Source of the DNA: Microbacterium schleiferi
Lineage (GTDB): Bacteria; Actinomycetota; Actinomycetes; Actinomycetales; Microbacteriaceae
Direction of reading: 5' to 3'
DNA: 64,000 nt
Assembly: GCF_015565955.1 (NCBI RefSeq)
Contig: NZ_CP064760.1
Location: forward strand, 558,001 to 622,000
The translations under genes and the position numbers were made by a program. The notes under the pieces are model-generated. The model saw only the letters and a list, made by a program, of their open reading frames with translations, did no database searches and had not been told where the DNA came from. Positions within the stretch are counted from its first letter, which is position 1. Each line of letters opens with the position of its first letter. Below, one piece after another: positions 2,233 through 61,187 of this stretch.

Positions 2233-2304
2233 GCCGAATGCAGGATGGATGCGTGCCTGGGCGGCGTGGCGGCGGGGTGGAGCGTGGATGATCCTGCGTT
2301 CGGT
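2233..2304. repeat. 72-bp palindromic element, family A copy 1
   Basis: Starts GCCGAATGCAGGAT and ends ATCCTGCGTTCGGT, forming terminal inverted repeats of about 14 bp. The 72-bp length is identical to the copies at 2418, 26921, 56769, 60917 and 61116. Confidence 0.85.
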
Positions 2305-2417
2305 CCGGCCGCGACGGGTGGGCGGCGGTGAGGACGCTGGCCGGCGGCGGGTCGCTGGCAGGGGCCGCTGGCCGGGGGCTGGGGCCGCTGGCCGAGGGCT
2401 GGGCGGGTGGTGCCCGG

Positions 2418-2489
2418 GCCGAACGCAGGATGAATCGGGTGCCAGCACCGCCGAACGTGCCTGCACTGGCGGCTGAGCCTGCAATCGGC
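2418..2489. repeat. 72-bp palindromic element, family A copy 2
   Basis: Starts GCCGAACGCAGGATGAA and ends CCTGCAATCGGC. It lies 185 bp from copy 1; three such pairs, spaced about 185-243 bp, occur in the window. Confidence 0.85.
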
Positions 2490-2521
2490 ACACGGCAGGT
2501 GTTCCCGGGCCCCGCCGCGGA

Positions 2522-2527
2522 TACCCT
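2522..2527 (+). promoter_or_regulatory. -10 box of a leaderless tsaB promoter
   Basis: TACCCT followed by exactly 6 bases and then the GTG start of tsaB. The same TANNNT-N6-start layout recurs at many genes here. Confidence 0.55.
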
Positions 2528-2533
2528 GGGAAG

Positions 2534-3229
2534 GTGATTCTCGGCATCGACACGTCGCTTGGCACCGCGGCTGCGGTCGTCGAGACCGACGGCGTGGTGC
2601 TCGCCGAAGCGTCGAGCGCGAATCCGCTCGGTCACGCCGAAGTCATCGGTGACCTGCTGCAGACCGTGCTCGGCACGGCGCGCACCGACGCCCCCCTCGG
2701 TCACGCCGGCGCCGGTACGCCGGGAGCGCCCGCGGAGATCACTGCGGTTGCCGCGGGCATGGGTCCTGGGCCGTTCACCGGACTGCGCGTCGGCATCGCT
2801 GCCGCCCGAACCTTCGCGCTGGGGCGCGGCATCCCCGTGGTCCCGGTGGTCAGCCACGATGCTGCAGCGCTCGGCATCCTGCTCGACGAGGCGCTCGCCG
2901 GTGAGACGGATGCCGATCCGGAGCGGTTTGCCATCGTCACGGATGCCCGCCGCCGCGAGTTCGCCTACACGGTGTACGAGGGGATGGATGACGACGGCCT
3001 GCCGATCCGTGTCGCTGAACCCGCGCTAAGCCCCCGCGATGACATCGATGCGGTGCTGACCGAGCTCGACGCCCGTCGGCACGACACGACTGCCATCTCG
3101 GCGGCCATGGTGGCGCTGGTCGCGGCGCGGGCAGTGGCGGCGGGGCGTGAGGTCGGTCCGCGGGACGCGCTGTACCTGCGCTCGCCGGATGTGACTCTCT
3201 CGGCCGGGCCGAAGAAGGTGGGAACATGA
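2534..3229 (+). CDS. tsaB: tRNA t6A biosynthesis protein TsaB
   Basis: Non-catalytic partner that dimerises with TsaD and is needed for tRNA t6A37 formation. The 231-residue protein opens with ILGIDTSLGTAAAVVE, the ASKHA-fold phosphate-1-like motif, and has the TsaB signature AAGMGPGPFTGLRVGIAAARTF near residues 75-95. The C-terminal half is divergent, as usual. The GTG start has no clear ribosome site but sits 6 bases after a -10-like TACCCT, suggesting leaderless initiation. The stop overlaps the rimI start (ATGA). Confidence 0.94.
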   Translation: MILGIDTSLGTAAAVVETDGVVLAEASSANPLGHAEVIGDLLQTVLGTARTDAPLGHAGAGTPGAPAEITAVAAGMGPGPFTGLRVGIAAARTFALGRGIPVVPVVSHDAAALGILLDEALAGETDADPERFAIVTDARRREFAYTVYEGMDDDGLPIRVAEPALSPRDDIDAVLTELDARRHDTTAISAAMVALVAARAVAAGREVGPRDALYLRSPDVTLSAGPKKVGT

Positions 3230-3779
3230 GCATCCGCCTCGCGACCGCCGACGACCTCGCCGCGATCATGGCGATCGAGCGGGCGTCGTTTCCGACCGAC
3301 GCGTGGTCAGAGACGATGATGGCCGCCGAGCTTGCGTCGCCCCACGGTTCGTACGTCGTCGTCGAGGAGGCGGGGCGCATCGTCGGATACGGCGGAGTGC
3401 GCGCGGTGCGCGGGGCGGCGGATGCCGACATCCAGACCATCGCGCTCGAGACGGCCGCCCGAGGAACGGGCCGGGGACGGATACTGCTCGCCGCGCTTCT
3501 CGAGCACGCCCGCGAGGCCGGGGCAAGGACCATGTTCCTCGAGGTCCGCGACGACAACGCGGTCGCCCGAAACCTGTACCAGCGCGAAGGCTTCCTCGAG
3601 ACCGGCCGGCGCCCGCGCTATTACCAGCCCGACGACGTCGACGCGATCATCATGCAGCTCGACCTTGTCGGATGGGATGCCGCGCGGCGCGAGGTCGGCG
3701 GCGACGCGGCGCTCGCGGCGGAACAACCCTCGGGCGGGACGCGAGGAACTGCCGTGGCATCGGGGGAGTGTGCACATGA
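3226..3779 (+). CDS. rimI: ribosomal protein S18-alanine N-acetyltransferase RimI (tail frame uncertain)
   Basis: GNAT-fold N-acetyltransferase classically assigned to the N-terminal Ala of ribosomal protein S18. The core runs from [21 protein letters not shown] to VDAIIMQL (about residues 2-145), with the acetyl-CoA loop [10 protein letters not shown] and the motif [13 protein letters not shown]. As printed the frame does not stop until 4161, deep inside tsaD. Adding one base in the tail (for example to CCC at 3727-3729) gives a 184-residue protein whose TGA at 3777-3779 overlaps the tsaD ATG. That fits the rest of the operon, so I end it there. The exact position of the lost base is unclear. 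Confidence 0.88.
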
Positions 3780-4879
3780 GCGCCGCCCGCGAACCCCTCG
3801 TCCTCGGGATCGAGACCAGCTGCGACGAGACCGGCATCGGCATCGTGCGCGGCCGCACGCTGCTGTCGAACACGATCGCCTCGAGCATGGACGAACACGC
3901 CCGCTACGGCGGGGTCGTGCCCGAGGTCGCCGCCCGCGCGCACCTCGAAGCGTTGCAGCCAACGATCGAGGCCGCGCTCGCCGAGGCGCAGGTCGAGCTC
4001 GCGGATATCGACGCCGTCGCCGTCACGTCGGGCCCCGGGCTCGCGGGTGCGCTCATGGTCGGCGTCGGCGCCGCGAAGGCGCTCGCGGTCGCGCTCGACA
4101 AACCGCTCTATGCCGTCAACCACCTCGTCGGCCACATCGCCGCCGACCTTCTCGACGCTGACGCGCCGCCCCTGGAGTACCCGACGATCGCGCTACTGGT
4201 CTCGGGCGGTCACACATCCCTCCTGCTCGTCCGCGACCTCACGGGCGACGTCGACCTCCTCGGCGAGACCGTGGATGACGCCGCCGGAGAGGCCTTCGAC
4301 AAGATCGCTCGCATCCTGGGCCTGCCCTATCCGGGAGGTCCCGAGATCGACCGCGCCGCGGCATCCGGATCGGACGGACTGGGCGGGACCCGCGCCGGCG
4401 ACCCGAACGCGATCCGCTTTCCGCGCGGCCTCTCCCGCGCCAGCGACATGGCCGAGCACCGCTACGACTTCTCGTTCTCGGGGCTCAAGACGGCCGTCGC
4501 GCGCTGGGTCGAGCAGCAGGATGCCGCGGGCAATCCGGTTTCGACCGCGGATGTCGCGGCATCCTTCCGAGAAGCTGTCGTCGACGTCCTCGTGACCAAG
4601 GCGCTCGCGGCGTGCGCGGACTTCGGCGTGCCGCGCCTGCTGCTGGGCGGAGGGGTGATCGCCAACCGGCGGCTGCGCGAGGTCGCGCTCGAGCGTGCTG
4701 CAGCGGCGGGTGTCACGGTTCGCATTCCGCCGCTGTCGCTGTGCACCGATAATGGGGCCATGATCGCGGCCCTCGCCTCGGAACTGATCATGGCCGGGCA
4801 CGGCCCCTCGACGATGGCGTTCGGCGCCGACTCGACGCTGCCGATCACCGACATCCAGGTCGCGGGGGAGGCACAGTGA
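3776..4879 (+). CDS. tsaD: tRNA N6-adenosine threonylcarbamoyltransferase TsaD
   Basis: Catalytic subunit that transfers threonylcarbamoyl from TC-AMP to A37 of ANN-decoding tRNAs. Its 367 residues contain [10 protein letters not shown] at the N-terminus, the metal-binding HxxxH in [20 protein letters not shown], the nucleotide loop [22 protein letters not shown], and [13 protein letters not shown] plus CTDNGAMIA at the C-terminus. The ATG at 3776 overlaps the proposed rimI stop. The stop overlaps the next gene's GTG start. Confidence 0.97.
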
Positions 4880-5244
4880 CTGATCGTGCTCGAGGGTTCT
4901 CGCGCTTTCCCACCGCCCCGGTGGACGTGCCGACGACCCTCAGCGGCCCCGACCCGTCGCCGGACCGCCCCGGCTGGGAACCGGATGCCGGACCCGTCGA
5001 AACCGCAAGCTTCGACCGCGGGTTCGCAGGCTGGGCGCTCGGCTTCGGGATCGTGGGCCTGGCCGTCTCGCTGTTCGTCGGATGGGGCTTTGTCATCGGC
5101 GTCGTCGCGATCGTGTCGGGCATCATGGCGCTGCGGCATCCGCGAGACAGCCGCCGCGTCGCGGTCTGGGCGATCGTGCTCGGCGCGGTGTCGATCCTCT
5201 ACAGCGCGGGCTGGCTCCTCTACGCCTGGACCGTTCTGACCTGA
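4876..5244 (+). CDS. DUF4190-type small membrane protein
   Basis: A 122-residue protein with a Pro-rich cytoplasmic N-terminus and two hydrophobic segments ([33 protein letters not shown] and [22 protein letters not shown]) around a short basic loop, the DUF4190 layout. The function is unknown. The GTG start overlaps the tsaD stop (GTGA), so it is the last gene of the acpS-alr-tsa operon. Confidence 0.78.
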
Positions 5245-5323
5245 CCCGTCGCCGGTTGCCGCGCCGGCGCTTTCGGGCGACGGATGCGGGGATCGGCGGG
5301 GCTGTACGGGAACGCGGTGCGCG

Positions 5324-6517: not shown

Positions 6518-6541
6518 CCATCCACCCTAGGCGCGGGCGCT

Positions 6542-6622
6542 GCTAACTCCTCAAACCCGCCCGCGGAGTGAGGCCCGCGGGCGGGTTTTGCGGTCCTGAT
6601 GCCCGACTCTTGAGGAGTTACC
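6542..6622. repeat. 81-bp inverted-repeat element, family C copy 1
   Basis: GCTAACTCCTCAA at 6542-6554 is inverted as TTGAGGAGTTACC at 6610-6622. A second element of exactly 81 bp with the same ends lies at 14540-14620. The interior of this copy holds a strong GC hairpin (6553-6588). Confidence 0.75.
6553..6588 (-). terminator. symmetrical GC-rich hairpin, likely terminator of the esterase gene
   Basis: AAACCCGCCCGCGG pairs with CCGCGGGCGGGTTT over a short loop, with T/A runs on both sides, so it can act on either strand. The minus-strand esterase ends 62 bp upstream of it. Confidence 0.65.
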
Positions 6623-6650
6623 GACGCGCGAGAGCGTCAGCGGGTCCGCG

Positions 6651-8244: not shown

Positions 8245-8262
8245 TGCTTCAATACACTTGCG

Positions 8263-8289: not shown

Positions 8290-8325
8290 CGAGTCTTGGA
8301 TCTCAAGGAAAGCAGAGGTAGACCC

Positions 8326-8729: not shown

Positions 8730-9773
8730 GTGACGCGCGAATCTGCTCCGGGGGATGGGAGCTCAGCGCCCTCGACGGGCGATGTCCCGGCATCCGGCGC
8801 GGCAGAGATCGCGGGAGCGGATGCCGCGCAGCTCGCCCAGGAAGCACCGGCGGATGCCGCGCGCGAGCGACTCGTCGGCGGCATCTTCGCGTTCTCGGCC
8901 TATTTCCTCTGGGGCTTCCTGCCGCTGTATTTCATCCTGCTCGCCCCGATCAGCGGCTGGGAGCTGGTCGGATGGCGCATCCTGCTCTCGCTCGTCTTCT
9001 GCATCTTCCTGCTCACCGTCATGCGGGCGTGGCGGCCGTTTCTCGCCATCGTGCGCCAACCGCGGCTGCTCGGCTGGACCGCCCTGGCGGGGGCGGTCAT
9101 CTACGTCAACTGGCAGGTCTTCATCCTCGCCACCCTCTCGGGCCATGTCATCGAGACAAGCCTCGGGTACTTCATCAATCCGATCGCGACGGTGCTTCTT
9201 GGCGTCCTCGTGCTGCGCGAGCGACTTCGCCTGACGCAATGGGTTGCCATCGCGATCGCCGGTGTCGCCGTCATCGTCACGATCGTCGGCTACGGCACGG
9301 TGCCGTGGGTAGCTCTCACCCTCGCGGCATCCTTCAGCATCTACGGCCTGATCAAGAAGCGCATCGGCCCGTCGGTGGATGCCGTCAGCGGCCTCACCCT
9401 CGAGTCGGCCTGGCTCACGCCCCTTGCGATCGTGCTGCTGGTGGTCACGTCGCTCACGAGTGGTCTCACTGTCGGTGCCTACGGTGTGTGGCACGCCGTG
9501 CTGGTGAGCCTCGCGGGGGCCGCGACAGCCGTCCCGCTGCTGCTGTTCGCCGCCGGAGCGCGACGGGTGCCCCTGACCGTCGTCGGGCTGCTGCAGTTCA
9601 TTGCGCCGATCATGCAGTTCATCACGGGCGCATGGATCCTCGGTGAACCGATGCCGCCCGAGCGCTGGGTCGGGTTCGCGCTGGTCTGGGTCGCGCTCGC
9701 CGTCCTCACCGTCGACTCGCTCGTCTTCGCGCGCCGCTCGCGCGGAGTCAGTGACGTCGCCGAATACAGCTGA
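8730..9773 (+). CDS. rarD: EamA-family transporter RarD
   Basis: The 347-residue inner-membrane protein has about ten hydrophobic segments in two EamA repeats. Characteristic RarD stretches are FLWGFLPLYF, ELVGWRILLSLVF, NWQVFILA, ETSLGYFINPIATVLLGVL, FSIYGLIKK and GLLQFIAPIMQF. The first ~50 residues are an Ala-rich cytoplasmic extension. E. coli RarD was named for chloramphenicol sensitivity and its substrate is unknown. It is transcribed alone and converges on the copper operon. Confidence 0.9.
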   Translation: MTRESAPGDGSSAPSTGDVPASGAAEIAGADAAQLAQEAPADAARERLVGGIFAFSAYFLWGFLPLYFILLAPISGWELVGWRILLSLVFCIFLLTVMRAWRPFLAIVRQPRLLGWTALAGAVIYVNWQVFILATLSGHVIETSLGYFINPIATVLLGVLVLRERLRLTQWVAIAIAGVAVIVTIVGYGTVPWVALTLAASFSIYGLIKKRIGPSVDAVSGLTLESAWLTPLAIVLLVVTSLTSGLTVGAYGVWHAVLVSLAGAATAVPLLLFAAGARRVPLTVVGLLQFIAPIMQFITGAWILGEPMPPERWVGFALVWVALAVLTVDSLVFARRSRGVSDVAEYS

Positions 9774-9850
9774 CCCCGCTGCCACGGCCGACTGCTTCGC
9801 AGCCGTTCCGTGCGCTGCGGCGCCGCTCGCGCGCCCTCACCACCGTTCCG

Positions 9851-9899
9851 CTGTCACAAACTGCCGCATCCGTCGCCGGTGAGCGACAGTCTGTGACAG
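9851..9899. repeat. 17-bp-arm hairpin between convergent rarD and csoR
   Basis: CTGTCACAAACTGCCGC (9851-9867) is inverted as GCGACAGTCTGTGACAG (9883-9899), two mismatches. No T run follows. It may act as a bidirectional terminator or be another dispersed hairpin. Confidence 0.6.
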
Positions 9900-14456: not shown

Positions 14457-14539
14457 CCCGCCCGCGACCATCCGTCCCGCCCGCGACATCCGTCCCGCCT
14501 GTGGCATCCGTCCCGCCCGCGAGATCCGCCCTGCCTGTG
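14457..14539. repeat. tandem repeat of an ~18-bp unit
   Basis: Four and a half copies of CCCGCCCGCGACATCCGT and variants (the alternate form carries CTGTGG in place of CCGCGA). Confidence 0.8.
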
Positions 14540-14620
14540 GCTAACTCAGCAAAGCTGGGTCAGCCGGAGCAGTCGGGCAGGCGAGCGGAGCCGAAATCGG
14601 GTCGATTGTGAGGAGTTAGC
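14540..14620. repeat. 81-bp inverted-repeat element, family C copy 2
   Basis: GCTAACTC at the left end and TGAGGAGTTAGC at the right end. Same length and ends as 6542-6622; the interiors are much less alike. Confidence 0.75.
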
Positions 14621-14691
14621 GGCACCCTCGCGACGGCGAGTGTGCGTTGCTGGGCCGCGACTGTGGTGTCGCATCCGTCCCGGAAGCCGTA

Positions 14692-14752
14692 CGCGAGGGT
14701 CGCAACACGCCGCAGCGATCAACGTCTGCACGGCATGTTGCGACCCCTCGCG
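14692..14752. repeat. long hairpin (family G)
   Basis: CGCGAGGGTCGCAACACGCCG at 14692-14712 is inverted at 14731-14752 with one bulge and one mismatch, around an 18-base loop. A related GTCGCAAC arm occurs at 41597-41680. Confidence 0.75.
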
Positions 14753-14772
14753 TGAGGCGTCGGGCCTGCAGG

Positions 14773-16452
14773 CCTTAGCCTTGATCCACCGATGAGCCGT
14801 GGGGTTGAGCGGGCGCGGTGACGCAGAAATGCCCCTCTGATCAGGAAGAATAGTGATTGTCTAGACCGCTGTTCGACCGATCCGAGAGGCATCTCGTAGG
14901 TGCAATTCAAGCATGCTCCCGCTGCTGTGTCAGCGATGTTCGATGATCCGAATCTCGTGTCGGCCGCGGGTCTGGTCCCGATGCTCCGCCTCGCCCGTTC
15001 CGTGGGCCTCGACGAGCTCGCGCAGTCGAGGTTGAGCGTCCCGACGGACAGGGGCGCGAACGCCGGGTCGAAGGTGATGGCGCTGGTGGCGGGGATGCTC
15101 GCCGGTGCGGACTCGATCGACGACATGAACCTGCTCCGTCACGGCGGGATGGGGCGATTGTTCGATCGGACGTATGCGCCGTCGACGTTGGGCTCGTTCC
15201 TGCGCGAGTTCCGTTTCGGGCATGTCCGCCAGCTCGATGCCGTCGCTTCCCGGACTCTGGTGAACCTCGCCTCGGCCGCACCGCTGCTGCAGGTTCGGGG
15301 CGGTGAGCGGGTGATGGTGGATCTGGACGACACGATCGTCGAGGTCCACGGATACAAGAAGCAGGGCGCCTCGTTCGGGTACTCCGGCGTCCGCGGACTC
15401 AACGCACTCCTTGCGACGGCGTCGACGACCTCGTCAGCACCGGTGATCCTGGGTCAGCGGCTCCGGCAGGGGAAGACCGGCTCCCCGAAAGGCGCCGCCA
15501 GGATCGTCGGTGACGTCCTCGCAACCCTCCGCCGCATGAACATCGGGAGCAGTGTCCGGCCGCTGCTGCGGGCCGACTCCGCGTTCTATGGGCACGGCAC
15601 CGTTGGCACCGCGATCAAGTCCGGCGCGGACGTATCTGTCACGGTCCGGATGGACCCTGCGGTGAAGACAGCGATCTCGTCGATCCCCGAGGACGGGTGG
15701 GAGACGATCGAGTATCCGAACGCGATCCGTGACGAGGCCACCGGGCGGTGGATCTCGAAAGCCGAAGTCGCCGAAGTGCCCTTCGTCGCGTTCCGCTCCC
15801 GGAAGATCGCCGAACGGGTCGAAGGACGTCTCGTGGTGCGGCGCATCCCGGACCTGAACCCGAACAAGGTGGAGCAGCCGACCTTGTTCGACGTCTACCG
15901 GCACCACGCGTTCTTCACCACCACCGACAAGCAGACGATGGGCACCGTCGCGGCGGACAAGACCCACCGTGCCCACGCGATCATCGAACAGGTCCACGCC
16001 GATCTGAAGGGCGGACCGCTCGCTCACCTTCCGTCCGGGGTGTTCACCGCGAACAGCGCCTGGCTCGTGCTCGCGGTGATCGCGTTCAACCTCACCCGCA
16101 CCGCCGGACTCATCTCCGACCGCGCCGGGCGGCTCGCCAGAGCGACAACCGCGACGATCCGCCGCACCCTCATCACTGTCCCGGCACGCCTCGCACGATC
16201 CGCCCGGCGCATCACCATGCACCTGCCCGCGGCCTGGCCCTGGCAGGCCGCGTTCGATCGCCTGTTCACGGCCACCCACGCCCCACCACACGTCAGCACG
16301 AACTGACCACCGCCGCGACGACGGCCCGACCGAGAACACAGTGGACGACCGGGATGCGACGCCCGGAACACAACCCTGCCCGCGGCCGGTCAAAGCCGCA
16401 TCCATCAAGTCGAGCCCCTCGCCCAAGGCTCATCGGTGGATCGAGGCTTAGG
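14773..16452 (+). mobile_element. IS1380-family insertion sequence
   Basis: Complete element of about 1.68 kb. The left end reads CCTTAGCCTTGATCCACCGA (14773-14792). The complement of the right end reads CCTAAGCCTCGATCCACCGA (16452 leftwards), giving terminal inverted repeats of roughly 26 bp that differ at a few bases. One transposase gene fills it. I could not find a clear target duplication beside these ends. The right end contains the TAA stop codon of livF (16448-16450), so insertion occurred at the very end of that gene. Confidence 0.9.
14900..16306 (+). CDS. IS1380-family transposase
   Basis: DDE transposase of 468 residues. The family pattern is intact: VMVDLDDTIVEVHGYKK with the first catalytic Asp, LLRADSAFYG with the second Asp, and a C-terminal Glu in HAIIEQVHADLKGGPLAHLPSG, followed by a basic Thr/Arg-rich tail. 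No frameshift or internal stop, so it may be active. GTG start at 14900 within the element. The IS separates livK from livFGMH. Confidence 0.94.
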   Translation: MQFKHAPAAVSAMFDDPNLVSAAGLVPMLRLARSVGLDELAQSRLSVPTDRGANAGSKVMALVAGMLAGADSIDDMNLLRHGGMGRLFDRTYAPSTLGSFLREFRFGHVRQLDAVASRTLVNLASAAPLLQVRGGERVMVDLDDTIVEVHGYKKQGASFGYSGVRGLNALLATASTTSSAPVILGQRLRQGKTGSPKGAARIVGDVLATLRRMNIGSSVRPLLRADSAFYGHGTVGTAIKSGADVSVTVRMDPAVKTAISSIPEDGWETIEYPNAIRDEATGRWISKAEVAEVPFVAFRSRKIAERVEGRLVVRRIPDLNPNKVEQPTLFDVYRHHAFFTTTDKQTMGTVAADKTHRAHAIIEQVHADLKGGPLAHLPSGVFTANSAWLVLAVIAFNLTRTAGLISDRAGRLARATTATIRRTLITVPARLARSARRITMHLPAAWPWQAAFDRLFTATHAPPHVSTN

Positions 16453-17212
16453 CGCCGAGGGTGCCGAGGTAGAGGCCGATGACCTTCGGGTCGTTCAGCA
16501 GTTCGCGGCCGGTGCCGGTGTAGGCATCCTTGCCCTGGTCCAGCACGTAGCCACGATCGCAGATCTGCAGGCAGCGACGGGCGTTCTGCTCGACCATGAT
16601 CGTGGTCACGCCCGCCTTGTTGATCTCCGAGACCCGGAGGAACGCGTCATCCTGCCGGGCGGGCGACAGGCCAGCCGACGGTTCGTCGAGCAGGATGACA
16701 GCCGGGTCCATCATGAGTGCGCGGCTCATCGCCACCATCTGCCGTTCGCCACCCGACAGCGAGCCCGCCCGCTGGTTCAGTCGCTTGCCGAGCTCGGTGA
16801 AGATGCCGGTGACGAAATCCAGACGCTCGGTGTAGAGCTTGGGGCGCTGGAACAGCCCCATCTGCAGGTTCTCCGCGATCGTGAGGCTCGGGAAGACGTT
16901 GTTGTTCTGCGGCACGAACCCGACGCCCTTGGCGACGAGCTTGTTGGCCCGCAGGCCCGTGATCTTCTCACCGTTGAGCGAGATGTCGCCCTGTCGCACC
17001 TTGACCTGACCGAAGATCGCCTTCAGCAGCGTGGACTTGCCGGCACCGTTGGGGCCGATGATGCCGATCAGTTCGCCATCCCAGGCGGTCAGGGTCGCGC
17101 CGTTGAGGATGTTGACCCCGGGCAGATACCCCGCGTGGACCTCGTCGACCAGGACGACCGGCGTTCCCTCGCGGACGGGGGGACGCTCGTCGGTGGCGGC
17201 TGCATCGGTCAT
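16448..17212 (-). CDS. livF: branched-chain amino acid ABC transporter ATP-binding protein LivF
   Basis: The 254-residue ATPase has Walker A (GPNGAGKSTLLK), the signature LSGGERQMVAMSRALM and Walker B (AVILLDEPSAGLSP). ATG 17212 overlaps the proposed livG stop (ATGA). Its TAA stop lies inside the right inverted repeat of the IS1380 element, so the insertion just spared, or supplied, the end of the protein. It energises LivHM together with LivG. Confidence 0.94.
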   Translation of the reverse strand: MTDAAATDERPPVREGTPVVLVDEVHAGYLPGVNILNGATLTAWDGELIGIIGPNGAGKSTLLKAIFGQVKVRQGDISLNGEKITGLRANKLVAKGVGFVPQNNNVFPSLTIAENLQMGLFQRPKLYTERLDFVTGIFTELGKRLNQRAGSLSGGERQMVAMSRALMMDPAVILLDEPSAGLSPARQDDAFLRVSEINKAGVTTIMVEQNARRCLQICDRGYVLDQGKDAYTGTGRELLNDPKVIGLYLGTLGA

Positions 17213-20770: not shown

Positions 20771-22272
<1,502 letters not shown>

Positions 22273-22515
22273 CGCGCGTTTGGGCTGCCCCGGTCCGGGG
22301 CGGCGCTCGCGGCATCCGTCTCGCGCGAGGTTCGCAGAATCGCGCGAGGTTCGCAGGATTCTGGCGTCATTCTGCGCAGTACGTGCAGTTGTGCGAGGTT
22401 GGCGAGCCCGTGTCAGGGTGCCGGCGCCTCCTCCCCAGTGTGACGTGGGGATTCGGTTCGAACAGACAGGATGCCGACGCCTGCCATGCCCGCGGCGCGG
22501 CAGGAAACTGCTGGG
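22273..22515. other. 243-bp intergenic region with family B repeat
   Basis: Contains two direct 19-20-bp copies of TCGCGCGAGGTTCGCAG (22321-22359) and then a partly inverted TTCTGCGCAG segment. No gene seen. Confidence 0.6.
22321..22405. repeat. family B hairpin/direct repeat, copy 1
   Basis: CGCGCGAGGTTCGCAG repeated twice in tandem, followed by GATTCTGGCGTCATTCTGCG. Shares the core GCGNAGNTTCGCAGGAT with 23468 and 24041. Confidence 0.65.
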
Positions 22516-23361
22516 ATGGAGCTCGTCGAGTGGCTGGCGCAGCGGGAGGGTATCGCGCATCGCGCCGACATCTTGCGCGCCGGCTACAGGGTCGCTGAGA
22601 TGCGCCGTTTCGTGCGCGACAGGCGGGCACGTGTCATCCGTCGTGCGTGGGTGACGCTCCCGGATGCCGCGCCCGATCTCGTCCTCGCCGCCAGTGCGGG
22701 CGGGCGGATCTCGTGCCTCTCCCTTGCGAGGCGGAGGGGGTGGTGGATGCCGCCGGACCTCGACCCGCATCCTCATCTGCATCTGATTCCGGGCTCCGGG
22801 TCGGCGCGCTTGCCCGCCGGATGGCGTGGTCGCGTGCACTGGACGACACCTCTCGCGCCGCAGGAACGCGGGCTCACCGCGACGGTCGAGGACGCCCTGC
22901 TTCACATCTCCGGATGCGCGCCCCACGACGCGGCACTTGCGCTGTGGGAGTCGGCGATTCGCGTCGAGGGCTTTGCTCCCGAGGCGGTGAGGCGCGTCGG
23001 GTGGACCTCGCGGGCCGCCCGTGAGCTGGCAGATGAGGTGGTCGGGCTCTCCGACTCTGGGCTCGAGACTCTCGTCGTTCTGCCACTGCGCCGCTGGGGT
23101 GTGCCGGTCGTGCAACAGGCAAGGGTCGGCGGCAGGTTCGTCGACCTCCTCGTCGGCGAACGGCTCGTGCTGCAGATCGACGGTTTCGCGCACCACGCCT
23201 CGAGCGCCCAGCGCACCAAAGACATCGCCCACGACGCGGAGCTCACGCTTCGCGGCTATACGGTGCTGCGCCTGAGCTACGCCCAGATCGTCTACGACTG
23301 GCCCGCGGTCGAGCGCCGCATCCGCAGCGCCCTCGCCGCTCGCCTGCACCTCGCCTCCTGA
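22516..23361 (+). CDS. DUF559-type (Vsr-like) nuclease-fold protein with AbiEi-like N-terminus
   Basis: The 281-residue protein has an N-terminal winged-helix-like segment (ELVEWLAQREGIAHRADILR), as in AbiEi-like proteins. The C-terminal DUF559 domain resembles very-short-patch-repair endonucleases: GRFVDLLVGERLVLQIDGFAHH, RTKDIAHDAELTLRGYTVLRLSYAQIV. The D..D...E/Q.DG pattern suggests a PD-(D/E)XK fold. These proteins are common orphans in Microbacteriaceae and their role is unknown. ATG 22516 is chosen by domain extent; further in-frame starts lie upstream. It sits between hairpin repeats. Confidence 0.75.
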   Translation: MELVEWLAQREGIAHRADILRAGYRVAEMRRFVRDRRARVIRRAWVTLPDAAPDLVLAASAGGRISCLSLARRRGWWMPPDLDPHPHLHLIPGSGSARLPAGWRGRVHWTTPLAPQERGLTATVEDALLHISGCAPHDAALALWESAIRVEGFAPEAVRRVGWTSRAARELADEVVGLSDSGLETLVVLPLRRWGVPVVQQARVGGRFVDLLVGERLVLQIDGFAHHASSAQRTKDIAHDAELTLRGYTVLRLSYAQIVYDWPAVERRIRSALAARLHLAS

Positions 23362-23467
23362 CGTCCTGCCGCGCCCCTCCCACCCGCGCCCCTCCCGCGC
23401 CGCGCCCGTCCCGCGTGCCGTGCGCATCCTGTCCTGCCGCGCGCCCTCCCGCGCCTCTCAGGCCCTC

Positions 23468-23524
23468 AGAACTGCGCGAAGTTCGCAGGATGCCGGGCCA
23501 ATCGTGCGAACTTCGCGCAATTCT
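23468..23524. repeat. family B hairpin, copy 2 (23-bp arms)
   Basis: The arm 23468-23490 (core GCGCGAAGTTCGCAGGA) is inverted at 23502-23524 with two mismatches around an 11-base loop. Confidence 0.85.
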
Positions 23525-23565
23525 GCGGAGTTCAGGGCAGGGCAAGGGCAACGGCAGGTCAGGCC

Positions 23566-23990: not shown

Positions 23991-24040
23991 GGCAGCTCGC
24001 GGCATCCGTTTGCCGGCGGGTTCGTCGTCCCGGGGTGTGC

Positions 24041-24116
24041 AAGGTCCGCAGTGTTGCGCGAAGTCCGCAGGATTCTGGCCCCGGGATGCGGAGTTCGTGC
24101 GATTCTGCGGAGTTCG
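24041..24116. repeat. family B repeat, copy 3
   Basis: GCGCGAAGTCCGCAGGATTCTGG at 24057-24079 with partly matching GGAGTTCGTGCGATTCTGCGG around it. It is the third copy within 1.8 kb. Confidence 0.65.
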
Positions 24117-26662: not shown

Positions 26663-27713
26663 ATCGGCCGGTGCCGGACCGATTGCAGGACCAACGGGGT
26701 CGGGAACCGGTTCCCGACCGCGGATCGGCGCGATCATCCTGTCGGGGGGACGCGCGCGACGCATGGGCGGGGTCGACAAGACCTCCCTGGGCCTTGCTGG
26801 TGCGACCCTGCTCAGCCGCACTGTCGCAGCCGCGCGCGTCGCGTGCGACGGCACGGTCGTGATCGTCGGCGCCCCACCCGAGGAGGGCCAGGGGACCGGC
26901 GCGCAGATCACCGAAGCCGGACCGATTGCAGGATCAACGCGGCTTGGAGCGGCCCGGGCGGGTGTGGATACGCCATCCATCCTGCGTTCGGCACCGTCGA
27001 GTGCGTCGGGGGTCGTCGTGATGCGCGAGGAACCGCCGGGAGGCGGACCGGTCGCGGCGATCGTCGCGGCGATCGGCCGCGTGGATGCCGACGAGGTCCT
27101 GCTACTGGCCGGTGACCTCGCGGAGGGCGATCGTGCCGTCGCGGCTCTTCTCGCGGGGCGCCCCGATGACGCTGCGGGAGCGGACGGCGTCGTGCTCGTG
27201 GATGAGGCCGGCCGGCGCCAGTGGCTCTGCGCCCGGATGCGGACGCAGGCGCTCGCCGACGCAGCCGCGCGCCTGACAGAGCCGAGGGGCGCGCGGATGA
27301 GCGACCTGTTCGCCGACCTGCGATGTCATGATCTGCCGGATGTCACCGGGGTGACGGCCGATGTCGACACGTGGCAGGATCTGTCCCGTGCCCGGTCTCG
27401 AGAGTCAGGAGCCCGCATGAACGACCGCACCCTTCCGCCTGAGGCGCTCGATGAGTGGGCCTCGGTGCTGCGCGACCGCTTCGGGTTGGATGCCGAACAG
27501 GTGCCGATCGCGCTCGTTCTCGATCTCGCGAGGGATGTCGCGCATGACGTCGCGCGCCCCGCAGCGCCGCTGAGCGCCTTCATCGCCGGACTCGTTGCCG
27601 GCCGTGCCGGCGGAAGCGCGGAGGACACGGCGGCGACGGTCGCCGAGGTCGTCGCGTTGGCGCGCGCTTGGGCCGAGGGCCGTGCTCCCCGGAGCGGCGG
27701 TGGCGGAGTCTGA
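26646..27713 (+). CDS. mobA: MobA-like molybdenum cofactor guanylyltransferase fused to a DUF6457 domain
   Basis: The N-terminal part (to about residue 250) is a nucleotidyltransferase with the GTP loop IILSGGRARRMGGVDKTSL and GGPVAAIVAAIG, attaching GMP to molybdopterin. The last ~95 residues (from MNDRTLPPEALDEW) form an all-helical DUF6457 domain that is often a separate gene. A possible own start at 27418 with AGGA upstream suggests either a true fusion or internal initiation. Two stretches translate the family A element (around 26678 and 26921-26992). The second inserts about 30 residues of low-complexity sequence in the enzyme core. Stop overlaps moaD (TGATG). Confidence 0.85.
   Translation: MPSAAESAGAGPIAGPTGSGTGSRPRIGAIILSGGRARRMGGVDKTSLGLAGATLLSRTVAAARVACDGTVVIVGAPPEEGQGTGAQITEAGPIAGSTRLGAARAGVDTPSILRSAPSSASGVVVMREEPPGGGPVAAIVAAIGRVDADEVLLLAGDLAEGDRAVAALLAGRPDDAAGADGVVLVDEAGRRQWLCARMRTQALADAAARLTEPRGARMSDLFADLRCHDLPDVTGVTADVDTWQDLSRARSRESGARMNDRTLPPEALDEWASVLRDRFGLDAEQVPIALVLDLARDVAHDVARPAAPLSAFIAGLVAGRAGGSAEDTAATVAEVVALARAWAEGRAPRSGGGGV
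26678..26749. repeat. family A element, degenerate copy inside mobA
   Basis: Left end ACCGATTGCAGGACCAAC matches the 72-bp element. The right end is only partly recognisable (ATCATCCTG before GTCGGGG). A 20-bp perfect palindrome (26699-26718) lies within it. Confidence 0.55.
26921..26992. repeat. 72-bp palindromic element, family A, inside mobA coding sequence
   Basis: ACCGATTGCAGGATCAAC to ATCCTGCGTTCGGC, exactly 72 bp (24 codons), read in frame in mobA. Confidence 0.85.
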
Positions 27714-38442: not shown

Positions 38443-40026
38443 GTGACAGAACAGACCGAAACCTCGCAGCGACCCGTCCTCGTCGTCGACTTCGGCGCGC
38501 AGTATGCCCAGCTCATCGCCCGCCGCGTGCGCGAAGCAGGCGTGTACAGCGAGCTGGTTCCGCACACCGCGAGCGCCGCCGAGATTGCGGCGAAGAATCC
38601 GATCGGCATCATCCTCTCGGGCGGCCCCTCGTCGGTGTACGAGCCCGGTGCGCCGACGCTCGATCCTGGCGTGTTCGATCTGAACGTGCCGACGCTGGGC
38701 ATCTGTTACGGCTTCCAGGTGATGGCGCAGGCGCTCGGCGGCGTCGTCGCGAACACCGGTCTGCGCGAGTACGGGGCGACGGATGCCAGCATCATTCGCG
38801 ACGAGAGCGTGTTGTTCGACGGTCAGCCCGCCGAGCAGAATGTGTGGATGAGCCACGGCGACCAGGTCTCGGAGGCGCCCGCCGGGTTCGATGTGCTCGC
38901 CCGGACTGGCGCGACCCCGGTCGCCGCGTTCGGCAGCGACGCGCGCCGCATGTACGGTGTGCAGTGGCATCCGGAGGTCAAGCACTCCGACCACGGCCAG
39001 CGGATCATCGAGAACTTCTTGCACAAGGCAGCGGGGCTTGCCGCCGACTGGAACAGCGGGAACGTCATCGCCGAGCAGGTCGAGCGGATTCGCGCGCAGG
39101 TCGGTTCGGGTCGGGTGCTCTCGGCCCTGTCGGGCGGAGTCGATTCTGCCGTCTCGACAGCCCTCGTCCACAAGGCCGTCGGTGATCAGCTGATCGCGGT
39201 GTTCGTCGACCACGGACTGCTGCGCAAGGGCGAGCGCGAGCAGGTCGAGCAGGACTACGTCGCCTCGACCGGGGTGCGCCTCGTGACCGTCGACGCGCGC
39301 CACACCTTCCTTGAGGCGCTTGCCGGGGTGAGCGACCCGGAGGAGAAGCGCAAGATCATCGGCCGCGAGTTCATCCGCGCGTTCGAGCGGGTGCAGCGTG
39401 AACTCGTCGATGAGGCCAAGGCCGACGGTGAGCCCATCCGGTTCCTCGTGCAGGGGACCCTCTACCCGGATGTCGTCGAGTCGGGCGGCGGCGCGGGAAC
39501 GGCGAACATCAAGAGCCACCACAACGTGGGCGGGCTTCCCGAAGACCTGCAGTTCGAGCTCGTCGAGCCGCTGCGCACCCTCTTCAAGGATGAGGTGCGT
39601 GCGATCGGCCGTGAACTCGGTCTTCCCGAGGTCATCGTGGGCCGCCAGCCCTTTCCGGGGCCGGGCCTCGGCATCCGCATCGTGGGTGAGGTTACCGCTG
39701 ACCGACTCGAGATTCTGCGTGATGCCGACGCCATCGCCCGCGAAGAGCTGACGAAGGCGGGCCTGGATGCCGAGATCTGGCAGTGCCCCGTCGTCCTCCT
39801 CGCCGACGTCAGATCGGTCGGCGTTCAGGGCGACGGGCGCACGTATGGGCATCCGATCGTGCTGCGCCCCGTCTCGAGCGAGGACGCGATGACCGCGGAC
39901 TGGACGCGGCTGCCCTACGACGTGCTCTCGCGTATCTCGAACCGCATCACGAACGAGGTGCGTGAGGTCAACCGTGTCGTGCTCGACGTCACCTCCAAGC
40001 CCCCGGGGACTATCGAGTGGGAGTGA
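38443..40026 (+). CDS. guaA: GMP synthase (glutamine-hydrolysing)
   Basis: Amidates XMP to GMP. The N-terminal class-I glutamine amidotransferase has the nucleophile Cys88 in LGICYGFQ and VQWHPEVKH. The ATP-pyrophosphatase has the P-loop [19 protein letters not shown] near residue 228. The C-terminal dimerisation domain ends in KPPGTIEWE, the standard GuaA end. GTG 38443 start, 527 residues. Its last codons are the first unit of a 71-bp tandem repeat. Confidence 0.97.
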
Positions 40027-40168
40027 CGCGGAGCGGCGCTCACACTCGTATGGGCACTGTGTGGCACTCGACCCCGGGGACGATCGAGTGGGAGTGAAGC
40101 GAAGCGGTGCTCACACTCGTATGAGCGCAGCGTGGCACTCGACCGCGGGAGCGGGCGAGTGGGAGTAG
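40001..40168. repeat. 71-bp tandem repeat over the guaA 3' end
   Basis: Unit 1 is 40001-40071 (contains the guaA stop), unit 2 is 40072-40142, and a partial third is 40143-40168. Each carries CGAGTGGGAGTGA or a close variant and, when complete, TCACACTCGTATG. The third copy overlaps the start of the glycosyltransferase gene. Confidence 0.9.
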
Positions 40169-41590: not shown

Positions 41591-41710
41591 ACGCGAGTCG
41601 CAACGGCGCATGTGTCGGCCGACACCCCGCGCGTCGATCCGAGGATGCGGCGCGCCGCGACATCCGTGCGCCGTTGCGACGTGCGCTGTTGCGACGGTGG
41701 CCGTTGCGAC
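41591..41710. repeat. family G inverted repeat plus 15-bp tandem repeat
   Basis: GTCGCAACGGCGCA at 41597-41610 is inverted at 41667-41680 (TGCGCCGTTGCGAC). Three adjacent 15-mers (41666-41710) read GTGCGCCGTTGCGAC and two variants. Confidence 0.75.
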
Positions 41711-55738: not shown

Positions 55739-55752
55739 GCTGCTCCTTGCTT

Positions 55753-55769
55753 AGATAGTTTCACTATCT
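55753..55769. promoter_or_regulatory. candidate MerR operator 1
   Basis: AGATAGT TTC ACTATCT, a perfect 7-bp inverted repeat with a 3-base spacer, between the MerR gene and the divergent membrane-protein gene. Confidence 0.8.
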
Positions 55770-55775
55770 TATATT

Positions 55776-55792
55776 GGGTAGCGCCACTATCC
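55776..55792. promoter_or_regulatory. candidate MerR operator 2
   Basis: GGGTAG CGCCA CTATCC, the same GATAGT/ACTATC theme with one mismatch, 23 bp centre-to-centre from operator 1. Confidence 0.65.
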
Positions 55793-55832
55793 AATGCGCG
55801 CCGTCGGCGCGGAGAGTCGAGACGGAGCATCC

Positions 55833-56249: not shown

Positions 56250-56259
56250 GCTCCCGGGA

Positions 56260-56685: not shown

Positions 56686-56768
56686 TGTGGGCGTAACTCC
56701 TGTGCACGAGGTGGGATTCGGGAGAAGCACCTGGCTGGGTGCGGAGTGAACCGAGGCAGTTCTGCCGG

Positions 56769-56840
56769 GCCGATTGCAGGATCAGATGTGGTTCGGCGTC
56801 ATCTGAACTGCCCCGATCCGGCATTCATCCTGCAATCGGC
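56769..56840. repeat. 72-bp palindromic element, family A, near yccF
   Basis: GCCGATTGCAGGATCAGATG to TTCATCCTGCAATCGGC, exactly 72 bp, between yccF and the next minus-strand gene. Confidence 0.9.
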
Positions 56841-56855
56841 ACGGCATCGCGGGGA

Positions 56856-57368: not shown

Positions 57369-58932
57369 CTCGAAGTGGAGTCAGGGTGTGCGCCCTCCGG
57401 CGCGGGAGTGGCGGACATGGTGGGGAGCGGCTCCGGCGCCGTGTTTCTGAGCGGATCCCGGTTGTCAAGATTTGTGAAGAAGAGGCGCACCTCGCCGCTG
57501 TCCTGATCGAGGACGACGCGTTGCGTTGTCACGACGGGAATCTGAGGGTAGGCGAGCTGGATCTGCAGCCTGCCGTCGTCGTCGGTGGGCACCTGCTGCG
57601 GACCGACATACTCTTCGGTGCCCTCATCCCAGCGCTCGTACCAGACCTCCGTATCGCCGAGGTTTGCGTCGAGGTCGAGTGCCACGCCGGGCCACACCAC
57701 GATGCTCGTGTAGCCAACCCCTTTCTCGATCCGTATCGGCGGTGGTTCTTCTGTCGGAAGCGGCATCAGTTCGAGGTGGAGGTCCCCCTGTTGTTGTGCA
57801 ATGGGGGCCAGACGGTCAACCGAATTGGCCACGCTGATCCTGAACGTGCTGACGTAGGTCGCGATCGGCGGAATCACGGCTGCCGCCGTCCCTCCCAGCA
57901 GCGTGACCACTGTCGCGAAGGCGAGGAAGCCGCTGCGTCGTCGCAGTAGCCCCGCGACGATCATCGCCACGGCCAGCACGAGCGCCGCGGCGAGCAGGCC
58001 ATACGCGCCAGCGGTCGCTGTGTTCATCGGATTGATCGCGATGTGCCACACTGCCGTCCCCGCACCAGCGACCAGCGCCACTCCGAGCACTGAGACCACG
58101 AATGCGCCACTCGCGCGGGGACGGGAGAGGCGACGGATGCGGCGCGTGTCGTTCGCAGCTGCGGCGAATGCCGCGGCCTCCGCCTCGCGCTCGCGCCGGG
58201 CCTGGTCGCGAGCGATGCGGTCGGCATCCTTCTGGGAGCGTCGCCACGCATCGTTCTGCGCGCGCCATGCGTCGTGGCGTGCTCGCCACTCGGCGATCTC
58301 GGCGTTGCCGGCTCCCCGCTCAGGGGGAGCGGCTCGGCGGGCGGTGTGCTTGGTGCCGCGTCAGCCGCGGTCTCGGCATCCGCGCCCTCCGGAGAGCCCG
58401 GATCTGTCCTCGCTGCCGCCGCCTCTGAGCCGCTCGGGGAGGCCGTTTTGCTTGCACGGGCCACGACGATCACGAGACCGACCACCAGGGCGAGCCCGAC
58501 GATCCAGCCAATGACGCTGAGCGTGCCAGCCTGCCACCACGGTGTCATCCAGCCGGACCATGGCGCGACGGGCACGAACCCGAGCGCCACCAGGATGATG
58601 ATCGCCACCATCGCGGGGTCGGCGCGACCACGCAGCGCCTCGCGAAAGTGGATGCGGCCGCCGATGTCGGGCAGGAGCGCCCACGCGATCGCGTAGACGA
58701 GAAGCATCGGGAAACCGAGCACGGCTGCCACGACGACGACGCCGCGAACGATCGCCGGGTCGATGCGGATGCGTGCCGCGACGCCCGCGCACACGCCGCC
58801 GAGCCAACCGTCGGCGCGGACGACGCCGAGTCCACGGACCCAGGCGAAGAACCGGTCCGAGCCGGTCGGTGCGCCCGGCGGCGCGGGAGGCGGGCCGGGA
58901 TCGGTCGCGGGAGTGTCGGTGGAAGTGCTCAT
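57365..58932 (-). CDS. PspC-domain membrane protein (frame interrupted by an apparent 1-base deletion)
   Basis: The N-terminal ~110 residues contain a PspC domain (DGWLGGVCAGVAARIRIDPAIVRGVVVVAAVLGFPMLLVYAIAWALLP). Further helices, a charged alanine-rich coiled-coil-like stretch (EIAEWRARHDAWRAQNDAWRR) and a C-terminal part with more helices and an exported beta-rich domain (EVWYERWDEGTEEYVGPQQVP) follow. As printed the frame breaks near PPAEPLPL. Adding one G to GGGGG at 58323-58327 joins the halves into 522 residues. It faces a PspC-domain histidine kinase across 114 bp, a common actinobacterial envelope-stress arrangement. Confidence 0.85.
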
Positions 58933-59046
58933 GCTTCGATCGTGGCAATCGGGGGGCCTCGCCGGCCATGGGGTGATCCCCTGAGCGCACCCTGATTCCG
59001 GCATCCGTGGCTCACGATCTCGCGGTGCGGATGATTGGATGGCGGC

Positions 59047-60225
59047 ATGTCCTCGGCCACCGCCCTTCCCGCGCGCCCGCCTCTGCAGCGGCCGCGCGTG
59101 TGCCTCGTGTCGGGCACGTCGGAGGGGCTGTCTGCCCACCTCGGGTGGAGCATTCTCGCGGTGCGGATGCTGTTCATCGCGCTCTGCCTCCTGTGGGGCG
59201 CCGGCATCCTGCTCTACGCATGGATCTGGGTGTTCACCCCGTGGCAGGACGGCGACGAGGCGCCTTCACGACAGGCCCCGGTGGCGTGGGTCCTTGCATC
59301 GCTGTCGGTGGTCGCGGTGATCGCCGCGTGCGTCGCGGCCGCCGTTCTGTCCCGCGGGGGAGTGGTCTACGCGACGAGGCCGGAGTGGTGGGGTGCGGTG
59401 CTCACGGCGATTCTGCTCGCAGTGACGGCGGGCGTCTGGGCCACCCTGGTAGACGCTCCCGACCCGGCGCGGGGTCCGCGTCACGCCCTGTCGGTGCGGA
59501 TCGCGGCATCCGCGGCCCTCGGCACTCTTCTGATCGTGCAGCTCACAACCCTGCAGCAGGGCGGTCTGGTCTCCTTCGCCGGCGCCCTCGTGCTCATCAT
59601 CGGGATCGCGCTGGTGCACTCCTCGCTGCTGGTCGAGCAATGGCGGGCGCTGTCGGGGGAGCGGGTGCGCCGCATCCGCGAAGAGCAGCGCAGCGAGATG
59701 GCCGCGCACCTGCACGACTCGGTGCTGCAGACGCTCGCGCTCATCCAGAACCGCGCGGGTGCCTCGAGCGAGGTCGCCCGCATCGCCCGCGCCCAGGAGC
59801 GGGAGTTGCGCGGCTGGCTCTACGACGGCGATGAGCCCGCCGACAGTGATCTGTCCACCGACCTGCGTGACTACGCGGCGGCGCTCGAGATCGACTACCC
59901 CGTGCGGATCGACGTCGTCGCCGCCGGCGCGTCGACCGAGCGAGCTAGCGGCGAGGTCGCGGCTGCCGCCCGGGAGGCGATCCTCAACGCGGCGCGCCAC
60001 GCAGGGGGTGAGGTCTCGGTGTACATCGAGGGCAGTGCGACATCCGTCGACGTGTTCGTCCGCGACCGCGGGCCGGGCTTCGATCCCGATGCCGTGCCCG
60101 CCGACCGGCTCGGCGTGCGCGAGTCGGTCATCGGACGGATGCGCCGCGCGGGCGGCACGGCGACCCTGCGGCGCGGCGCCGGCGGCGGCACCGAGGTCCA
60201 CCTGCGGCTGGGAGGAACGGCATGA
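59047..60225 (+). CDS. sensor histidine kinase with N-terminal PspC domain
   Basis: The 392-residue kinase has a PspC-like N-terminus (RVCLVSGTSEGLSAHLGWSILAVRMLFIALCLLWGAGILLYAWIWVFTP) and several more helices. A HisKA_3 domain with the phospho-His in AAHLHDSVLQTLALIQ (residue 223) and a HATPase domain (AAREAILNAARHAGG, VRDRGPGFDP) complete it. ATG 59047 is preferred over TTG 59035. Its stop overlaps the response-regulator start (ATGA). The PspC domain likely reports envelope stress. Confidence 0.92.
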   Translation: MSSATALPARPPLQRPRVCLVSGTSEGLSAHLGWSILAVRMLFIALCLLWGAGILLYAWIWVFTPWQDGDEAPSRQAPVAWVLASLSVVAVIAACVAAAVLSRGGVVYATRPEWWGAVLTAILLAVTAGVWATLVDAPDPARGPRHALSVRIAASAALGTLLIVQLTTLQQGGLVSFAGALVLIIGIALVHSSLLVEQWRALSGERVRRIREEQRSEMAAHLHDSVLQTLALIQNRAGASSEVARIARAQERELRGWLYDGDEPADSDLSTDLRDYAAALEIDYPVRIDVVAAGASTERASGEVAAAAREAILNAARHAGGEVSVYIEGSATSVDVFVRDRGPGFDPDAVPADRLGVRESVIGRMRRAGGTATLRRGAGGGTEVHLRLGGTA

Positions 60226-60887
60226 GCGGCATCCGTGTCGTGATCGTCGACGACCACTCGATCTTCCGCTCCGGACTGCGCTCGACCCTCGACGGCGTCG
60301 AGGTCGTGGGGGAGGCCTCGGACGTCGAATCCGCCGTCGCCGTCATCACGGCAGAGCAGCCCGAGGTCGTGTTGCTGGATGTCCACCTTCCCGGCGAGAC
60401 GGGCGAGGTCGCTGCCGCGACCGGCGGCGAAGCCGTCATCCGTCGCGCGGCACCGGCCGCGCCCTCGACCCGGTTCCTGGCGTTGAGCGTGTCGGATGCC
60501 GCCGAAGACGTCGTGCGCGTCATCCGCGCCGGCGCTCGCGGCTACATCACGAAGGGCTCGTCGGTGGCCGAGGTCAGTGCGGCAGTGCGGGCCGTGGCCG
60601 AGGGGGACGCCGTCTTCTCGCCGCGGCTGGCCGGCTTCGTGCTCGACGCGTTCGGTGCGGTCTCGGGCGAGACGGCGGCAGCGAGCGACGAGCTCGACCG
60701 GCTCTCGGCGCGCGAGCAGGAGGTCATGCGGCTCATCGCCCGCGGCTACGCCTACAAGGAGGTCGCGGCGGAGCTGTTCATCTCGATGAAGACGGTCGAG
60801 ACGCACGTCTCGGCGGTGCTGCGCAAGCTCCAGCTCTCGTCGCGGTACGAGCTGACAGCCTGGGCCTCCGCCCGCCGCCTGCTCTGA
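60222..60887 (+). CDS. NarL/LuxR-family response regulator
   Basis: The 221-residue partner of the PspC-domain kinase has an N-terminal receiver (VVIVDDHSIFRSGLRSTL, phospho-Asp near residue 53 in VLLDVHLPG, and the switch Lys in GYITKGSS). The C-terminal LuxR helix-turn-helix reads LSAREQEVMRLIARGYAYKEVAAELFISMKTVETHVSAVLRKL. Probably controls the divergent PspC-domain operon. Confidence 0.95.
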   Translation: MSGIRVVIVDDHSIFRSGLRSTLDGVEVVGEASDVESAVAVITAEQPEVVLLDVHLPGETGEVAAATGGEAVIRRAAPAAPSTRFLALSVSDAAEDVVRVIRAGARGYITKGSSVAEVSAAVRAVAEGDAVFSPRLAGFVLDAFGAVSGETAAASDELDRLSAREQEVMRLIARGYAYKEVAAELFISMKTVETHVSAVLRKLQLSSRYELTAWASARRLL

Positions 60888-60916
60888 GCCGACGGCGCAC
60901 CGCTGGTGCCCGCCGT

Positions 60917-60988
60917 GCCGATCGCAGGACGAATCGTCGATCTTCCGGTGTGGCCGGGGCAGAGAGGTCATCTCATCCTGCAATCGGC
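60917..60988. repeat. 72-bp palindromic element, family A
   Basis: GCCGATCGCAGGACGAAT to CATCCTGCAATCGGC. Its interior (GGTGTGGCCGGGGCAGAG) is clearly similar to that of the copy at 61116, so the whole unit is repeated, not only the ends. Confidence 0.9.
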
Positions 60989-61073
60989 GCGCCCGCGCTG
61001 TGCCGCCCATACCGGAGATGCGCAGGGGCGGGCCGGAGGCGAGCAGGTGCGGCCCCGGGTGATCAAAGTCTCG

Positions 61074-61098
61074 GCTGGGCTGGGCTGGGCTGGGCTGG
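61074..61098. repeat. 5-bp tandem repeat (CTGGG)n
   Basis: About five copies of CTGGG between the two family A elements. Confidence 0.85.
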
Positions 61099-61115
61099 AT
61101 CGGATCGCGGAGCGG

Positions 61116-61187
61116 GCCGATCGCAGGATGAAACGCTGATCCTGCGGTGTGGGCGCGGCAGCGAGGCCATCTCATCCTGCATTCGGC
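61116..61187. repeat. 72-bp palindromic element, family A
   Basis: GCCGATCGCAGGATGAAACG to CTCATCCTGCATTCGGC, 72 bp, 199 bp after the previous copy. Confidence 0.9.

Follow-up and report, generated by a model that had tools for sequence, protein, structure and literature searches.

Two-armed 72-bp repeats in Microbacterium schleiferi as putative partner sites of AbiEi-EDxHD nucleases

Introduction

In REPIN/RAYT systems, families of repeats are described beside their own single-copy enzyme gene, with which they co-evolve (PMC3116915, PMC3733652). Long inverted sites are also described for the AbiE antitoxin, where AbiEi binds its own promoter cooperatively at two inverted repeats of 23 bp and bends the DNA, while Rv2827c binds four repeats (PMC7319586). 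The Pfam family REase_MTES_1575 (PF18741) is named after a large HEPN-helicase-Vsr protein, and repeats are not mentioned in the passages of PMC3710099 that introduce it. Here we describe a 72-bp two-armed element dispersed through a 64,000-nucleotide stretch (the window; positions 558001-622000) of the 3.30 Mb single-contig chromosome of Microbacterium schleiferi (GCF_015565955.1; G000, the own genome below). We judge it likely, with a probability of roughly 0.7, that these elements are cognate sites of AbiEi-EDxHD nucleases, in an arrangement like that of REPIN/RAYT with an unrelated enzyme.

Like REPINs, the elements have two conserved inverted ends around a spacer and are dispersed, and each family lies beside its own enzyme gene. 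Unlike REPINs, they come without a Y1 transposase, hairpin covariation or a GTAG tag at the arms; the enzyme is instead an AbiEi-EDxHD nuclease, and element lengths cluster by helical turns. With AbiE operators the system shares long inverted half-sites and a two-domain DNA-binding fold, the AbiEi fold being recovered in the protein. In contrast to those operators, which lie 3-13 bp apart in one promoter, the sites here are 71-94 bp long, scattered and placed on both sides of the gene, while the protein carries a nuclease and its immediate neighbours include no DUF1814 toxin. The nuclease domain has the fold and the E-D-x-H-D residues of the EDxHD/Vsr-like homing endonuclease I-Bth0305I, but no intron or intein was seen, and the matched sites lie on both sides of the gene and at further places in the genome rather than forming one empty target. 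By Pfam it belongs with REase_MTES_1575, below the curated cut-off of that family in this genome. The system works most like REPIN/RAYT but does not qualify as a member of that group.

Copies and anatomy of the element

A preliminary description of the window listed seven copies of a palindromic element. All seven places are present and six of them are clean; on re-reading the sequence, these six are each exactly 72 bp with both arms, as had been proposed. The copy at 26678 is doubtful, only its left arm being good, and was excluded from later counts. Three close relatives (G108-G110; all drafts, two from metagenomes) are used for comparison; by tsaB protein, Microbacterium schleiferi FXH-192 and two Microbacterium metagenome genomes come closest among named relatives, at 87-88% identity.

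2233..2304: 72-bp element between tsaE and tsaB; no counterpart in the close relatives (0/3)
2418..2489: 72-bp element; 72 bp and at the same position in the relatives (3/3), interior diverged
26678..26749: doubtful copy; left arm convincing, right arm poor and overlapping mobA codons
26921..26992: 72-bp element within the mobA-DUF6457 reading frame
56769..56840: 72-bp element missing from relative G110, which has 7 bp there against 127 here
60917..60988: 72-bp element with convergent genes on its two sides; its interior is 78% like that of copy 61116
61116..61187: 72-bp element 199 bp from copy 60917

Two places touch mobA. The in-frame codons AIILSGG (from 26730) overlap the putative right arm of the 26678 copy and read AIILAGG in the relatives. 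The 26921 copy has the same position, with the mobA frame open, in the own genome and the three relatives (four genomes); the MobA proteins of more distant species are without this insert, as judged by eye. In the tsaE-tsaB gap, where the own genome has copy 2233, locus L121 of M. schleiferi (about 9700-9885) holds another inverted repeat, read by eye as CCCACGTGTGCGGC....

In each element a free interior is bordered by two arms in inverted orientation (CCGAWYGCAGGA). The clean copies (n=22) align without gaps and give a half-site on each side, CG-K-V-CCGA-W-Y-GCAGGA-T, inverted, with an interior near background. Matches to GCCGANNGCAGGAT number 12 + 7 genome-wide, against none for the reversed-pattern control; W and Y stand at the free places in 17 of them, all paired, and the two unpaired matches have other letters. 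With the spacing left free between 67 and 97 bp, the two-arm pattern occurs at 27 places in the genome and at none in the control, a copy number far above chance. Of 26 copies read, 22 are 72 bp and four are 71 bp, and 15 lie within 552-657 kb. As regards chromosome sites tied to the origin or terminus, dnaA lies at 1.2 kb and 24/26 copies fall in the origin-near half by coordinates, a pattern that is not clear in the relatives.

A nuclease gene flanked by the element

When the genes next to elements were clustered across species, the widest cluster comprised ABC transporters (by eye; ten genomes), a common gene kind, and a regulon defined by neighbour function was rejected. The second cluster, from five genomes, is a gene matching AbiEi_4 and REase_MTES_1575/DUF559. 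Elements adjoin such nuclease genes on both sides in G015 and G037, beside trpS, and on at least one side in G045, G048 and G050. In the own genome the corresponding gene, L306, lies outside the window at genome positions 638475-639296 and is flanked by three elements, two on one side and one on the other.

L306 is an AbiEi-type winged-helix part fused to a Vsr/EDxHD homing-endonuclease-like domain. Its predicted structure (predicted local distance difference test, pLDDT, 92.9) has as best PDB matches AbiEi (6y8q, E 3.3e-4) and the catalytic domain of I-Bth0305I (3r3p, TM-score 0.78 by target), followed by NGO0050, Vsr and Rv2827c; a search by sequence profile likewise gives 3hrl and 3r3p. Across 27 aligned rows E171, D198 and D224 never vary and H215 is almost invariant, a pattern that we take to fit the EDxHD motif. 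PADLOC AbiEi profiles match L306 and its paralogue L305 but not the related window gene at 22516-23361. No adjacent DUF1814 toxin was found, the two immediate neighbours of L306 matching only oxidoreductase and TetR families. The preliminary description had noted that no RAYT-like transposase is present, and this extends to the whole genome: PF01797, the profile of the Y1 (tyrosine) transposase that defines REPIN/RAYT, has 0 matches in G000, with the control positive in 5/14 known genomes, and a RAYT partner was rejected. The likely partner of the element is an AbiEi-EDxHD nuclease, not a transposase.

Other nucleases carry their own repeat families

It was set beforehand that other such nucleases should carry repeats of their own, and the D2 repeats were named in that prediction. 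This was found for the sister nuclease gene of the window, which has a distinct family (D2) on both sides.

22516..23361, plus strand: sister nuclease gene; MTES_1575/DUF559 (Vsr-like) C-terminus, N-terminus alignable to the AbiEi-like part in the other nucleases
22325..22400: upstream D2-family repeat, arms GCGARGTTCGCAGRAT by eye
23457..23532: downstream D2-family repeat
24039..24114: third D2-family copy, after a small DUF2277 gene

Elements of the types found at further nuclease loci are also scattered through the window.

6539..6625: L305-type scattered element, arms GCTAACTCCTCA
14537..14623: L305-type scattered element
14696..14747: L311-type scattered element, arms GGGTCGCAACACGCCG, 52 bp
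41595..41682: L310-type scattered element, arms GTCGCAACGGCGCA

The genome has eight PF18741 matches at E <= 0.1, one of them a long protein of another kind, and by inspection all seven small nuclease genes (7/7) are flanked on both sides by their own inverted repeats. In the own genome an automated arm-pair test passes L306, L310 and L311 and misses L304, L305 and L307, which were accepted by eye; L308 was not part of it. The longest exact word shared between the two 600-bp flanks reached at least 14 nt at 16/31 nuclease loci as against 28/445 other genes, with L312-L314, L309 (long proteins), L308, L321 (no gene called) and L331 (short flank) left out. Inverted arm pairs matching in 13 of 14 positions were present in both flanks at 14/31 and 17/30 nuclease loci as against 1/150 controls, the second set being orthologues of the same genes, hence not independent, with 650-bp instead of 600-bp flanks. 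These controls were a random 150 of the 445 genes; L312-L314 were left out here too, and the other exclusions were as in the flank-word test.

Arm class and nuclease are inherited together. On the nuclease tree five arm classes require 5 changes, compared with a permuted mean of 12.2 and a minimum of 9 in 300 permutations, the classes having been assigned by eye to 21/27 tree rows after the tree was known. Orthologues of L304, L305 and L307 in the three relatives, 78-88% identical, keep their arm families (partly by eye), and outside the genus a flank word of at least 14 was present at 5/12 loci measured, including Leifsonia, Agromyces and Homoserinibacter. For several other families the arms reappear at element lengths of about 68-75, 81-84 and 94 bp, and some nuclease families have shorter flank elements, at 38-60 bp. 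As in REPIN/RAYT, then, the single-copy enzyme gene of a family is found next to its repeats, but this enzyme is unrelated to RAYT and half of the loci fail the automated test. Together these data identify the repeat as real, conserved in place and functional-looking, and as belonging to a set of families that go with AbiEi-EDxHD nucleases.

Conservation in close relatives

A sequence-only element model found 10, 11 and 7 places in G108, G109 and G110. Of the 25 places read (25/28; G108:C22:18425 was read separately as L121, and G109:C215, C79 (weak) were left out), 18 coincide with own-genome copies; 19 are 72 bp, four 71 bp, one 67 bp and one 52 bp. Ten own copies have an orthologous counterpart in relatives, with arms and length preserved. 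Across 28 species pairs in nine orthologous groups, conserved arm positions are identical in 545/560 cases (97%), degenerate arm positions in 171/224, interior positions in 514/753 (68%) and ungapped flanks in 738/1400; element length is equal in 21/28 pairs and differs by one in the others. The arms and the length stay as they are at these places, and only the interior drifts.

Arm mismatches per element average 0.77 in the relatives as against 0.19 in the own genome (p 0.006), a comparison biased by a consensus made from G000. Fewer copies and more arm mismatches in the relatives are as expected if the nuclease maintains its sites, within the limits of that bias and of four genomes. At two places G110 is empty where the own genome has about 120 and about 250 bp extra; the footprint is not clean, and the flanks are 79-91% identical.

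Element length in other species

The element model detects the family in 12/98 genomes searched, the own genome included, and all 12 are among the 59 of the genus. The arms differ between species. Searched over 366 genomes of the genus, the free-length pattern has matches in 76 and at least three in 23, whereas the control never exceeds two. Length was analysed at the 70 non-own places among the matches listed. The 49 from genomes with at least two listed places are all at 71-72, 81-83 or 93-95 bp (49/49), and the 21 single matches among those listed have scattered lengths, as for chance matches. The lengths fit best to a period of 11.2 (R 0.91; 99.9% bound of the null 0.47), and a period of 10.5 gives 0.85. 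In the model-found set 39/43 places are at 71-72, 81-83 or 92-96 bp, the exceptions being 69, 79 and 85 bp and one misfit at 141. The fixed length first proposed for the element describes most copies in the own genome, and lengths in other species are quantised.

Two variants were seen. The elements at L284-L286 (from G149, G150 and G151) have a compound version of this architecture: by eye, every arm is made of two tandem half-sites some 20 bp apart, and the two arms are inverted relative to each other. Of the elements of 92-96 bp, 9/11 contain a central motif close to GGAATYMCGCGG, with at most two mismatches, which is perhaps a third binding site.

L235, L239-L241, L245, L246, L248, L263, L264: loci with 92-96 bp elements/central motif

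Weighing the explanations

These data allow us to propose how the elements and the nucleases may be connected. Two nuclease molecules would sit on one face of the helix, each at one of the inverted arms, and the DNA would loop. Binding on one face would require a spacing of whole turns (about 72, 82 and 94 bp) and leave the interior free. Each nuclease paralogue would have its own arm sequence, with copies flanking its gene and scattered between genes, and the nuclease might keep its sites, or slowly spread them, through cutting and repair, as in REPIN/RAYT or homing. With somewhat less assurance, we think this is probably an undescribed chromosomal partnership in Microbacteriaceae, between many paralogous AbiEi-EDxHD nucleases and their co-evolving, helically phased families of inverted two-site elements. 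Lying around the nuclease genes and colonising intergenic DNA, these would act either as a nuclease-driven selfish replicator or as a restraint on the nuclease carried by the genome. It may represent a new kind of nuclease-partnered repeat, and no description of such a pairing was found in the searches made of the open-licence PubMed Central literature. If correct, it would supply a testable partner for a nuclease domain present in 58/59 sampled Microbacterium genomes (2-11 matches each, E <= 0.01), would account for several unrelated-looking palindrome families of one window, and would mean that REPIN-like enzyme-repeat partnerships arose also around an enzyme that has no relation to transposases. 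A sharp biochemical prediction follows from the clustered spacing.

Several results weigh against this proposal. Across the nuclease loci, 30/61 fail the automated arm-pair test, including three of the six own-genome loci, and none of nine further weaker homologues in G108-G110 (0/9), some of them at contig ends, has a common flank word of 13. For the six nucleases with CCGA arms the tree requires 4 changes, a result compatible with one origin or with several. The three relatives keep 72-bp sites with neither an orthologue of the L306 nuclease nor a match beside a site (E <= 1e-10), indicating that sites outlive the nuclease or have another keeper. The best length period exceeds the 10.5 of relaxed DNA. 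Among the 26 copies, no pair more than 1 kb apart has interiors whose likeness exceeds the shuffled maximum, and no target duplication or clean empty site was seen at the two G110-empty places with their diverged flanks.

A possible, if doubtful, account is that the elements are operators only, the AbiEi-like part repressing its own gene via the flanking sites and the scattered copies forming a regulon or leftovers, with neither mobility nor cutting. AbiEi and Rv2827c are described as binding inverted repeats at their own promoters (PMC7319586), and by eye copy 2418 and the G015/G056 copy lie just upstream of likely promoters. However, sites also occur on the downstream side of nuclease genes, and no common function unites the clusters of neighbouring genes. 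Scattered copies favour gene 3' ends and convergent pairs, where promoters are not expected: the median distance to a gene 3' end is 31.5 bp in the own genome and 22 bp in other species, compared with 126 bp for random positions, and 9/26 own copies and 15/40 in other species lie between convergent genes, compared with 17% at random. Copies called inside genes number 7/40 in the other species.

We consider it unlikely that the chromosomal sites are a restraint, acting as a sink or DNA antitoxin for a potentially harmful nuclease, with arms and spacing selected for as long as the nuclease is present. The conservation of arms and length in place would suit this, as would copies that are fewer and slightly worse where the nuclease is missing, but the comparison covers four genomes only and its arm counts are biased towards G000.

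A classical miniature inverted-repeat transposable element (MITE) or REPIN, whose ends are the terminal inverted repeats of a transposon and are copied in trans by its transposase, is very unlikely. It is favoured by two conserved inverted ends, dispersal, one copy within mobA and presence that differs between species. Against it, a Y1 transposase is absent, distant interiors are not alike and target duplication was not seen at the two G110-empty places, the ends of other transposase families having not been searched. Mean interior likeness of distant pairs is only slightly raised (0.421 vs 0.396), and clear likeness is confined to some neighbours less than 300 bp apart, which makes local duplication visible but not dispersal by copying; the common interior expected between MITE ends was likewise found only in neighbouring copies. 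The mobile-element reading of the preliminary description survives in its layout, which is dispersed, fixed-length, two-armed and REPIN-like. Mobility is left unsupported, as no distant pair has a common interior, no clean target duplication was seen and ten copies are orthologous in relatives.

Two-way transcription terminators with the arms as an RNA stem would explain the enrichment at gene 3' ends but are extremely improbable, since paired cells at the degenerate arm positions (76.8%) fall below the shuffled level (79.7%; 498/500 shuffles as high or higher) and a terminator has no need of conserved sequence and spacing. The RNA-stem reading is disfavoured on this ground, and the hairpin of REPIN/RAYT is likewise not seen, the arms pairing below the shuffled level with no covariation; the conserved entity is then two copies of a DNA motif rather than a stem or hairpin, as the nuclease partnership would have it. 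At gathering scores Rfam has no match at any window copy and one unrelated match in the window.

Other features of the window

A DDE transposase gene (PF13701; 14936-16306) lies between 32-nt inverted repeats that are 91% complementary, the whole unit spanning 14772-16453, and stretches resembling it occur at 727.7 kb of the genome and in relative G109. The Rfam match Ms_IGR-7 (14780-14897, minus strand) overlaps one end of this unit, and this small RNA call may for that reason be the end of an insertion sequence. The window also contains an 18-bp tandem repeat at 14469-14540 and a 71-bp direct tandem repeat at 40001-40142, in two copies 89% alike. The guaB gene (IMP dehydrogenase), expected to be essential, is split by a frameshift or sequencing error into overlapping frames at 20771-21556 and 21514-22272, each matching PF00478.

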